Below are positions 12,707 through 15,876 of a stretch of DNA of 64,000 nucleotides, in pieces (position 1 is the first letter of the stretch; each line of letters starts with the position of its first letter). Source of the DNA: Catenuloplanes atrovinosus. GTDB taxonomy: Bacteria; Actinomycetota; Actinomycetes; Mycobacteriales; Micromonosporaceae. The stretch covers positions 5,690,001 through 5,754,000 of the forward strand of contig NZ_JAVDYB010000001.1 of the NCBI RefSeq assembly GCF_031458235.1, written 5' to 3'. Made by a program: the position numbers and the translations under genes. The notes beneath the pieces are model-generated. The model did no database searches. It was not told where the DNA came from and was given only the letters and a program-made list of their open reading frames with translations.

Positions 12707-13936
12707 TCAGCGGTAGGCGGCCACGGCGGCGCCGCCCTTGATCAGGAAGACGTGGTGGTGGCCGAGCGCGACCGGGCCGGTGCTGTACTCGGCGAGCGGC
12801 AGCCGGCGCAGCTCACGGCCGTCCCGGGCGCGCAGCGCGAGCAGGTGGGTGACCGGGGTGTCCGGGTTGCTCTGGAGCCAGACGACGCCGTTGCCGGCCA
12901 CGATCGGGCCGTACGGGTAGGCGCCCGGCGCGGTCCACAGCCGGCGGCCGGTGCGCACGTCGAACGCGGCGATGCGGTGGTCGTCCGGCACGGTCAGGTC
13001 GTCCGCGCCGGCGTAGAGGCGCCCGCCCGCCGCGGTCAGGTCGTGGTAGCGATGGGTCGCCGGCGCGCACCAGAGCCGCCGGCCGTCCCGGGCGCCGTGG
13101 GCGCACAGCCGGTCGCCCGCGACCAGCACCGCGTGCGGGTCGGCCGCGAGGTCGCCGCCGCCGCGCACCTCCCGCTGCCAGAGCCGCCGGTTGGCCAGGC
13201 TGAGCTGGGTGACCAGCGCCGGTGAGTCGTCCACGACCGGGGCGGGTTCCTGGCCGGGCGGGATGATGTCGTCGCCGTAGAGCTCGTCGCGGTCCTGGAG
13301 CGTGCGGACCGCGATCCGGCCGCCGGCCGCCGCCGCGACCGGGGCGCCGCCGGTCAGCGTGCGGGTCCAGGCGCGGGCGCCGGTCTCCGCGCGGAACGCG
13401 TGCAGCACGGTCCGCTCGCAGACGTCGCCCTCGTAGCGGCCGCAGTCCCGGCCGGACGCGGCCAGCACCAGGTCACCGGCCGGGAGCACCCAGGCCGCGG
13501 GCCGGTCGCCGGCGAGCGTGGCGGTCCAGCGGGTCCGGCCGCCGAGATCGTGGGCGCGCACCACGCCGTCGGCCGTCGTGATCGTGAGGATCGACCGGCC
13601 GTCCGTGACCGGGCCGCCGAGTTCGGGTCCGGGCAGCCCGGGCGCGGCGAACGGGAGGCGTGCACCGGTGGCGGCGTCCCGGCGTACCAGGCGGATCAGG
13701 TCCCCGTCGCGCGCGCCGTGGTAGACCGAACCGGCGACGTGGAGCGGGTCGCCGGCCGGCGCCGCGTCGGTCGCGGTCCACGCCTCGGCGAGCCGCGCGG
13801 CCCGCGCGGGCGTCGGCCCGTCCGTGCCGGGCACCGGCGGTACAAGCATCGGGTCGACCGGCGCCGCCTGGACCGGCCCGGCGGCCAGCGCGGTCAGCAG
13901 CACCGCCGCGGTCGTGGTGAGCAGCGTCCGTGTCAT
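12707..13936 (-). CDS. Secreted PQQ-like beta-propeller protein
   Basis: Of 409 residues, a signal peptide of about 24 (MTRTLLTTTAAVLLTALAAG then VQA|AP) is followed by repeated blades of the form GRLYAG...VRTGRRLWTA and DGRELRRLPL, the W-containing quinoprotein/PQQ-like repeat. A loop with four cysteines (CGRYEGDVC and CAHGARDGRRLWC) could form disulfides outside the cell. No catalytic quinoprotein residues can be assigned, so a binding or scaffold role is as likely as an enzyme. It diverges from the ArsR-type gene across an array of four palindromes and may be part of that regulon. Confidence 0.8.
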   Translation of the reverse strand: MTRTLLTTTAAVLLTALAAGPVQAAPVDPMLVPPVPGTDGPTPARAARLAEAWTATDAAPAGDPLHVAGSVYHGARDGDLIRLVRRDAATGARLPFAAPGLPGPELGGPVTDGRSILTITTADGVVRAHDLGGRTRWTATLAGDRPAAWVLPAGDLVLAASGRDCGRYEGDVCERTVLHAFRAETGARAWTRTLTGGAPVAAAAGGRIAVRTLQDRDELYGDDIIPPGQEPAPVVDDSPALVTQLSLANRRLWQREVRGGGDLAADPHAVLVAGDRLCAHGARDGRRLWCAPATHRYHDLTAAGGRLYAGADDLTVPDDHRIAAFDVRTGRRLWTAPGAYPYGPIVAGNGVVWLQSNPDTPVTHLLALRARDGRELRRLPLAEYSTGPVALGHHHVFLIKGGAAVAAYR

Positions 13937-14017
13937 CGCTGAGAGCCTTTCGTCGGATCCGCGGCCTCAGTATGGGCGCGCCTTCCCGGCGAATCCGGCT
14001 TTCCGGACGCCTCCGCG

Positions 14018-14064
14018 TGTGCACAACTCTTGTGCACAAATTCTGTGCACAGTTACTGTGCACG
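14018..14064. promoter_or_regulatory. Array of four TGTGCACA palindromes with 13-bp spacing
   Basis: TGTGCACA at 14018, 14031 and 14044, and TGTGCACG at 14057. Copies 2-4 cover a candidate promoter, -35 TTGTGC (14030-14035), 18-bp spacer and -10 TACTGT (14054-14059), whose transcript would start at the GTG 14066 of the ArsR-type gene. A likely autoregulatory operator for ArsR and MFS, perhaps also acting on the divergent PQQ gene. Confidence 0.8.
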
Positions 14065-14065
14065 C

Positions 14066-14650
14066 GTGGAGCAGACCGGCGTCCGGATCGACGCGACTCA
14101 GCTGAAGGTGCTGGCCCACCCGTTGCGGTCCCGGCTGCTGGCCGCGCTGCGCACCGACGGCGCCGCCACCGCGACCCGGCTGGCCGAGCGGCTGGGGACG
14201 AACACCGGCGCCACCAGCTACCACCTGCGCCGGCTGGCCGAGGTGGGCCTGGTGGTGGAGGACGACCGGCCCGGCGCCGGCAAGCAGCGCTGGTGGCGTG
14301 CCGCGCAGGACTGGCACAGCATCGTGGCCGGCGACTTCCCGGAGGACGACCCGGACGCGCAGGCCGCGCTGGACTGGCTAGACGAGTTCTACCGCTCCGA
14401 GCACGCGCGCGCGGCCGCCCGGTGGCGGGCCGAGGAGCGCCGGTGGCCGGCCGAGTGGCGGGATGCGGTGACCTCGAACGACTACCTGCTCGACCTCACG
14501 CCCGCGCAGGTCCGCGCGCTGAACGAGGAGGTCGGCGCGCTCATCGAGCGGTACCGGGCGTTGCCGCGCGCGGAGGGCGCCGAGCGGGTGGTGGTGCTGT
14601 ACGAGAACCACCCGGTGCCCCGCGCCCGGCCCGCCGGGGAGGCCCGATGA
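14066..14650 (+). CDS. ArsR-family winged-helix transcriptional regulator
   Basis: A 194-residue regulator. Residues about 8-85 form the winged helix: LKVLAHPLRSRLLAALR, then ATATRLAERLGTNTGATSYH and LRRLAEVGLV, followed by a charged C-terminal helical region. No cysteine metal-binding motif is seen, so a metal sensor is unlikely. GTG 14066 is six bases behind a TACTGT -10 box inside the palindrome array; a TTG at 14030 would translate through the operators and is less likely. The stop overlaps the MFS start (ATGA), so regulator and transporter form an operon. Confidence 0.87.
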   Translation: MEQTGVRIDATQLKVLAHPLRSRLLAALRTDGAATATRLAERLGTNTGATSYHLRRLAEVGLVVEDDRPGAGKQRWWRAAQDWHSIVAGDFPEDDPDAQAALDWLDEFYRSEHARAAARWRAEERRWPAEWRDAVTSNDYLLDLTPAQVRALNEEVGALIERYRALPRAEGAERVVVLYENHPVPRARPAGEAR

Positions 14651-15876
14651 CGGTCCGGGCCCGCTACCTGATCCTGCACGGCCTGCGCTGGCTGCCGGTC
14701 GGGCTGCTGATCCCGGTCACCGTGCTGCTGGCCCAGGAGCGCGGGCTGTCGCTCTCCCAGATCGGCCTGATCACGGCCGTGCAGGGCGTCGTGGTGCTGG
14801 CGCTGGAGCTGCCCACCGGCGGCCTGGCCGACACCATCGGCCGCCGCCCGGTGCTGCTGCTCGCCTCGCTGGTCAACCTCGCCTCGCTGGCGCTGCTGGT
14901 GGTGGCCGACTCGTTCTGGGCGTTCGCGGTGGTCTTCGCGCTGCAGGGCGTGTTCCGCGCGCTGGACAGCGGACCGCTCGACTCCTGGTACGTGGACGCC
15001 GCGCTCGCCGAGGACCCGGACGCCCGGTTCGAGGACGGGCTGAGCCGGGGCGGCGTGGTGCTCGGCTGCGCGATCGGCGGCGGCGCGCTGCTGGCCGGCG
15101 GCCTGGTCGCGCTGGACCCGATCCCGTCGGTGAGCGCGCTGACCGCCCCGCTGGTCGCGGCCGTCGCGCTCCAGGCGGTGACCGTGGTCGCGACCGTGGC
15201 GCTGCTCCGCGAGCCGCCGCGGTCCGGCACCGGCCCGGCGGGCCCGGCCGGGACGCTGCGCGGCGTGCCCGCCGTGATCGCGGACGCGGCCCGGCTGCTG
15301 CGCCGGTCGCACGTGCTCACCGCGCTGATCGCGGTGGAGCTGTTCTGGGCGTTCGGGATGATGACGTTCGAGCTGCTCTTCCCGGTACGGCTGGCCGAAC
15401 TGGTCGGCAGCCCCGGCACCGCGGGCACGATCATGGGCCCGGTGGGCTCGGTCGCCTGGCTGGCCTCCGCGGCCGGCGCCGCGCTGGCGCCCGTGCTGGT
15501 CCGGCGGCTCGGCCCGGCCTGGTCCGGCGTGACCCTGCAGGCCGGGCAGGCGCTGGCGGTGCTGGCGATGGGCCTGCTCACCGGCCCGGCGGGGGCGATC
15601 GCGGCATATCTGGCCTGCTACGCGCTGCACGGCGCGGTCAACCCGGTCTTCCGGGGCCTGATGCACCGGCAGTCGGACGCGGGGAACCGCACCACGGTCG
15701 CGTCGCTCGCCTCGATGGCCGGGCTGCCGGCCGCCGCGGCCGGCAGCGTGGTGCTCGCCGCGATCGCGGACGCCGCCGGCGTGCGCACCGCGATCCTGGC
15801 CGGCGCGATCCCGCTGGCGGTGGCCGCGCTGGGATACCTGGCGGCGCGCCGCACGCCGCCGGCGTCCCGCGATTGA
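14647..15876 (+). CDS. MFS transporter
   Basis: A 409-residue protein with about twelve hydrophobic helices in two halves. Between helices 2 and 3 it carries ELPTGGLADTIGRRPVLL, the GxLaDrxGrr-type motif A of the major facilitator superfamily. Acidic D/E residues appear in VFRALDSGPLDSW, a stretch common in drug-exporter-like MFS members. It is coupled by a four-base overlap to the ArsR-type regulator, so substrate-inducible efflux is the simplest reading. Substrate unknown. Confidence 0.85.
   Translation: MTVRARYLILHGLRWLPVGLLIPVTVLLAQERGLSLSQIGLITAVQGVVVLALELPTGGLADTIGRRPVLLLASLVNLASLALLVVADSFWAFAVVFALQGVFRALDSGPLDSWYVDAALAEDPDARFEDGLSRGGVVLGCAIGGGALLAGGLVALDPIPSVSALTAPLVAAVALQAVTVVATVALLREPPRSGTGPAGPAGTLRGVPAVIADAARLLRRSHVLTALIAVELFWAFGMMTFELLFPVRLAELVGSPGTAGTIMGPVGSVAWLASAAGAALAPVLVRRLGPAWSGVTLQAGQALAVLAMGLLTGPAGAIAAYLACYALHGAVNPVFRGLMHRQSDAGNRTTVASLASMAGLPAAAAGSVVLAAIADAAGVRTAILAGAIPLAVAALGYLAARRTPPASRD

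Follow-up and report, generated by a model that had tools for sequence, protein, structure and literature searches.

Four short palindromes stand in register upstream of an ArsR-like regulator gene of Catenuloplanes atrovinosus, a soil actinobacterium, and they raise the question of which protein would bind them and what length of DNA would serve each of its dimers. The window, the whole stretch of 64,000 nucleotides that was analysed, holds the octamer TGTGCACA at 14018, 14031 and 14044 and the variant TGTGCACG, with G instead as its last base, at 14057. The step between successive octamers is exactly 13 bp, and three of the four are perfect palindromes.

The array is exceptional because of its phasing, not of octamer abundance. 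The octamer is in no excess in the window, where 15 matches with at most one mismatch were counted against 14.73 expected. A run of four TGCA cores at any constant period between 8 and 20 bp is present once in the window and never in 100 dinucleotide shuffles, while three-core arrays arose twice in the shuffles. No other palindromic 8-mer of the window is present in three copies at a single spacing (9–24 bp tested), and the three-core 13-bp pattern is found in the 8.9-Mb genome at this locus only. The repeats and their exact phasing are not due to chance. Their positions and spacing are as the initial annotation gave them. It also placed successive sites on rotated faces of the helix, and the arithmetic agrees, as 13 bp make about 446 degrees at 10.5 bp per turn, that is, about 86 degrees on.

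The array lies inside a longer quasi-palindrome. Compared by eye, 14011–14025 and the reverse complement of 14057–14071 agree at 13 of 15 bases, and the latter arm takes in the start codon of the regulator gene. The stretch 14010–14072 folds far better than its shuffles, with z values of -6.48 on the plus strand and -4.42 on the minus strand.

Table 1. Observed and predicted features at the array and beside it, in window positions
Feature	Position	Strand	Remarks
Octamers 1-4	14018..14064		inner two (14031-14038, 14044-14051) are predicted overlaps of neighbouring sites; 14018-14025 and 14057-14064 are terminal cores
Predicted dimer site 1, TGCACA-ACTCT-TGTGCA	14020..14036		13-bp tile CACAACTCTTGTG at 14022-14034; unit deduced from end-core asymmetry
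Predicted dimer site 2, TGCACA-AATTC-TGTGCA	14033..14049		13-bp tile at 14035-14047; unit deduced from end-core asymmetry
Predicted dimer site 3, TGCACA-GTTAC-TGTGCA	14046..14062		13-bp tile at 14048-14060; includes the -10; unit deduced from end-core asymmetry
Predicted -35, TTGTGC	14030..14035	+	overlaps core 2; T, T and G conserved
Predicted -10, TACTGT (TAnnnT)	14054..14059	+	overlaps last core; T and A conserved
ArsR-like winged-HTH regulator, 194 aa	14066..14650	+	GTG start; PF12840 HTH_20; recognition helix region TNTGATSYHLR
MFS transporter (PF07690)	14647..15876	+	start overlaps regulator stop (ATGA)
Divergent PQQ_2 protein	12707..13936	-	probably outside the system

Does the array stay with its gene pair? 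Orthologues that keep the pair and lack the array had been named beforehand as the refuting test, and the comparison shows the opposite, array and pair kept together. Two or more exact cores spaced on the 13-bp register are present in 81 of 81 loci, namely the window and the best 80 of 476 relatives at 48–78% identity, a sample hence biased to top-scoring relatives. At least three such cores are present in 77 of the 81. The arrays hold five exact cores in 34 loci, four in 28, three in 15 and two in 4 (L019, L039, L081 and L082). The TGCA pairs in the 81 upstream stretches are mostly 13 (255 pairs), 26 (174), 39 (97) or 52 bp (34) apart, with 8 for the next commonest, and at the other periods of 10, 11, 12, 14 and 15 bp a pair occurs in one of the 81 loci in all, as by chance.

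The nearest among the relatives listed is Catenuloplanes japonicus with 78% identity. The sample is mostly Micromonosporaceae but extends to Actinophytocola, Georgenia, Cellulomonas, Agromyces, Herbiconiux, Microlunatus and Nocardioides, and further to Acidimicrobiia MAGs, one Chloroflexota MAG and a few others. The Chloroflexota MAG carries the gene pair and the array on a contig of 6.9 kb (L057), so short that its placement is provisional. A related MFS gene follows the regulator on the same strand in all 80 close relatives. The last core lies 6–9 nt upstream of the start codon in 68 of the 80 and 12, 19, 20 or 32 nt upstream in the other 12. Each start codon was taken by a rule that biases the distances towards short ones, namely as the first in-frame start encountered past the last core.

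The array appears to cover the promoter of the regulator gene. The promoter predicted in the window reads TTGTGC-18 bp-TACTGT and the GTG begins 7 nt past the end of its -10. A gap-free alignment took 77 of the 81 loci (L058, L081 and L082 lacked an anchor and L068 was left out; in five loci with a degenerate last core the anchor was shifted one period on), and 66 non-redundant arrays remained after removal of those at least 75% identical. Among these 66, the -35 bases aligned with 14030–14032 are T, T and G in 59, 58 and 56, respectively, and the -10 bases aligned with 14054–14055 are T and A in 65 each. These conserved bases uphold the annotated placement over the promoter of the ArsR-type gene, which the MFS gene follows, though a consensus scan found 0 promoters at the array. 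The transcript is probably leaderless, and an array so placed over the regulator's own promoter is compatible with autorepression.

The regulator itself matches the HTH models PF12840 HTH_20 with 47.6 bits (cut-off 27) and PF01022 HTH_5 with 29.6 bits (cut-off 22). It scores 45.6 bits with the metalloregulator subfamily model NF033788, under the curated cut-off of 55. It has no cysteine, nor do 38 of the 41 rows of alignment A1 (the window plus 40 relatives from the set of 80), which bears on cysteine-based metal sites only. Residues N46 to R55 (NTGATSYHLR) are invariant in all 41 rows.

The regulator has a wider family, with relatives in 112 of the 148 genomes of the class that were searched with a profile. 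We compared 94 wider loci, which comprise 5 of the 8 other own-genome matches, 29 of the 30 profile-search loci, the window's own being left out, and 60 hand-picked matches as part of those listed without a locus. The 6-mer repeat offset in these loci is 14 in 56 and 13 in 12, and each other offset from 8 to 21 is found in 3 to 16.

The core changes with the recognition helix. All seven loci with a TN[TS]G helix have TGTGCA and a 13-bp TGCA pair, with L128 being a copy of L084 and with mainly TGCAGA cores in L130, L131 and L189. The [EQT]SSG-like helices go with TGCAAA (37 of 39 loci) and a 14-bp TGCA pair (26 of 39, with 13 bp in 3), the [LVI]N[TS]G helices with TTTGCG (8 of 8) and a 14-bp TTGC pair (6 of 8), and the EA[VP]SL helices with TTGCGC and GCGCAA (6 of 6) and a 14-bp GCAA pair (6 of 6). 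The five loci with [LI][ST]PSA helices gave no TGCA or TTGC pair, and the 29 loci with unclassified helices are mixed, 5 of them with a 14-bp TGCA pair. Because the recognition helix and the core and period vary in step across the wider family, the array is tied to the adjacent regulator. The correlation is at the clade level, so its independent events are few.

In a quick tree of 134 rows, a 48-row group, all labelled 13, splits off with an SH-aLRT of 98; for the 41 A1 rows the label was assigned by rule, and one wider locus of the 94 dropped out because of its length. Six rows labelled 13 fall outside this group and three of them form one small clade. L174, L197 and L214 form a small clade of their own (RIGQSSGVTSYHLR[TI]M), whose TTGCA-type cores are apparently 13 bp apart. 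Because this clade stands apart, the step of 13 bp may have more than one origin.

The window genome has two paralogues with their own 14-bp-phased repeats upstream of the regulator genes, at L090 (G000:C1:5578491) and L092 (G000:C1:942497). Their half-sites, CACAAGAA and CTAAAGA, differ from those of the window. Upstream of L144, L141, L152, L165 and L199, in the 14-bp group and beyond, long near-perfect palindromes over several cores were seen by eye.

Pumps accompany the distant regulators as well. Each of the 10 distant members scanned, all picked for a membrane-spanning-looking next ORF, has an MFS protein behind it. The pumps differ across the wider family, because tblastn with the window MFS protein matched only 15 of the 94 loci.

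The repeats might instead serve another DNA-binding protein, or be a simple repeat without a regulatory role. The bare three-core pattern is indeed found elsewhere. TGYA-N9-TGCA-N9-TGCA occurs in 40 of 296 genomes phylum-wide and its reversed control in 31 of 296 by manual table count, so it was rejected as an unspecific finder of the system. Such a regulator stands at only 4 of the 29 loci fetched in this search, and at two more chosen for likeness. However, where the recognition helix encoded next to the array differs, core and period differ with it, and the window genome has a single such array. We regard another binder or an idle repeat as very improbable.

From these sequence comparisons we infer that the array is a multi-dimer autorepressor operator of the adjacent ArsR-like regulator and controls both the regulator and the MFS gene, with a probability of roughly three in four.

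How would the dimers sit on this operator? The initial annotation gave each short palindrome its own dimer, so that four dimers centred on the TGCA of each TGTGCACA octamer would stand 13 bp apart. A dimer centred on the octamer predicts symmetric ends of the array, whereas one between the cores predicts the end asymmetry that is observed. In the 66 non-redundant 13-bp arrays, the leftmost core has the inner A in 66 and the outer T, thus partly kept, in 24, and the last core has the inner T in 64 and the outer A in 9. The 27 arrays of 14 bp behave alike, with the inner A at +5 in 25 and the outer T at -2 in 5 at the leftmost core, and the inner T at -2 in 25 and the outer A at +5 in 2 at the rightmost. 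The base right beside the core is less clear-cut in them (outer T at -1 in 8 of 27 and outer A at +4 in 10 of 27).

The interior cores of the 13-bp arrays are symmetric, with T at -2 and A at +5 each in 138 of 146, and those of the 14-bp arrays have T at -2 in 23 of 37 and A at +5 in 31 of 37. The former symmetry and the three perfect octamers of the window are what dimers centred on octamers would give. They would not give the loss of most of the outer half at the terminal cores of both the 13-bp and 14-bp arrays, nor the full TGTGCACA in only 60 of the 278 cores of the non-redundant 13-bp arrays. Moreover, the two recognition helices of one such dimer would need to be about 4 bp apart. We consider this arrangement improbable.

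We place the dimer axis between octamers because the terminal cores keep the inward half only. The dimer unit is likely a 17-bp TGCANA-N5-TNTGCA, which is TGCACA-N5-TGTGCA in the window, with neighbours overlapping by TGCA. The octamers are then likely the overlaps of neighbouring dimer sites, and the end-core asymmetry leaves the window with three complete sites in place of the four that had been proposed.

The sites TGCAYA-N5-TRTGCA occur in the genome three times at the array and once elsewhere (2711596), so the operator looks dedicated. At E 1e-3, the locus fetched there (G000:C1:2711596, L216) shows no relative of the regulator. With only this one further site, we rejected the idea that the genome holds a wider regulon.

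In the mechanism we propose, the ArsR-like regulator would repress its own leaderless promoter and thereby the MFS gene overlapping its stop codon. Its dimers would occupy the 17-bp sites between consecutive TGCA cores, and three of them would tile 43 bp without a gap, sharing the TGCA cores and covering the -35, the spacer and the -10. A ligand, perhaps a substrate of the pump, would release them.

An extension is that cooperative binding joins the dimers into a continuous helical sheath, or filament, and that array length sets a switch-like response. Constant gap-free phasing with 2 to 5 exact cores per array speaks for it, and so do the precedents of BldC and TubR. The five-core arrays add spacers that mirror each other around the second site, as a symmetric higher-order complex would require. 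Close spacing is possible without dimer–dimer contact, though, and the 16 four-core arrays, the window's among them, lack the mirror signal. Cooperativity or a filament is plausible, and we hold the full extension possible at somewhat less than even odds.

The mirroring was measured on 29 non-redundant five-core arrays. The spacers flanking the second site mirror each other at 3.97 of 5 bases, against 2.80 expected from loci re-paired, and 15 of the 29 are perfect mirrors. A looser core rule gives 3.79 against 2.50 expected (n = 39). In alignment A2 of the 29 arrays, 32 cells are double-changed, against 11.8 (sd 4.3) after a shuffle that ignores relatedness and 3–7 when the arms are slid. The four-core arrays (n = 16, the window's included) show no mirror signal, with 1.69 of 5 against 1.82 and, on the other axis, 1.44 against 1.30. 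Nine 14-bp arrays with at least four cores score 3.89 of 6 against 3.01 expected, the largest of 2000 shuffles being 4.33, so that their mirror symmetry is suggestive only.

This covariation could come from a symmetric multi-dimer complex or from template-switch mutation. In the latter case, template switching at quasi-palindromes would homogenise both arms without selection, and a process of this kind is described (PMC7202029, PMC8604942). Within the mirrored arms, G.T departures (34) are about as frequent as A.C departures (30; p 0.71), so no selection for an RNA hairpin is seen, which suits a mutational origin. However, the mirror similarity falls to what is expected (1.82 of 8 against 1.78, n = 39) beyond the outermost mirrored cores, a limit that a mutational tract need not respect. 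A purely mutational symmetry seems rather unlikely to us.

An RNA hairpin or attenuator was rejected on the same near equality of departures and on the array being upstream of the predicted start.

The divergent PQQ gene had been suggested as perhaps under the same control. It stands beside the regulator–MFS pair in only one of the 80 close relatives, Catenuloplanes japonicus, and its likely -10, at about 13969–13974 on the minus strand as judged from the sequence, is outside the array. Shared control is weakly supported and was set aside.

Our literature search, which used few terms and covered the result lists in part and few subscription papers, found nothing on this regulator or operator. 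On present comparisons we offer a broader generalisation that we hold less likely than not. In it, the ArsR-like pump regulators of a large family in actinobacteria, undescribed in the literature searched, would bind as an extendable gap-free sheath of dimers with one 13- or 14-bp tile per dimer. Neighbouring dimers would share one TGCA (or YGCR) core and meet there within the same major groove. The helix would set the core, the clade the tile length, and the core number (2 to 5) would tune the sharpness of the switch.

If true, nature provides a series of 2 to 5 cores, 13- and 14-bp steps and several core sequences in dozens of orthologues. With this series one can ask how the response of a promoter depends on how many repressor dimers it binds and how they are phased. 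The rule from recognition helix to DNA might also predict the operators of many uncharacterised actinobacterial MFS pumps from sequence.

Several known systems resemble the proposed operator in part. The double-dimer operators of DtxR/IdeR and QacR have overlapping sites for more than one dimer, as proposed here, but they take two dimers on one site at an offset of about 5–6 bp, unlike the extendable 13- or 14-bp tiling. The MerR-like BldC of Streptomyces binds a variable number of repeats as cooperative multimers in a protein–DNA filament (PMC5859096). Its repeats are direct and bound head-to-tail by an asymmetric oligomer, whereas the sites here are palindromic and the HTH is ArsR-type.

In the TubR–tubC centromere complexes, winged-helix dimers fill an array, repress tubRZ and form a flexible filament (PMC5016525). 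They serve plasmid partition on direct repeats, unlike the palindromic array at a pump promoter. In a search by sequence, TubR was not among the PDB matches of our regulator. Oligomeric binding of Streptomyces Zur at zitB lengthens the footprint (PMC5472717). Zur is a metal sensor of another family, however, and activates by spreading upstream from one box rather than along phased palindromes.

The ArsR/SmtB operators are 12-2-12 inverted repeats bound by homodimers in metal-inducible operons (PMC6555750). In place of one such operator, the window has three overlapping predicted 17-bp sites. The same source names smt itself as an exception to the single 12-2-12 rule, as the smt operon has two repeats (S2/S1 and S4/S3) with one homodimer on each (PMC6555750). 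The likeness is that of homodimers on inverted repeats in an operator, the dimers being predicted here. The differences are that the window protein lacks cysteine and has a C-terminal half beyond the HTH domain, and that its three sites (one to four sites on 2 to 5 cores elsewhere) share TGCA cores at a fixed step of 13 or 14 bp.
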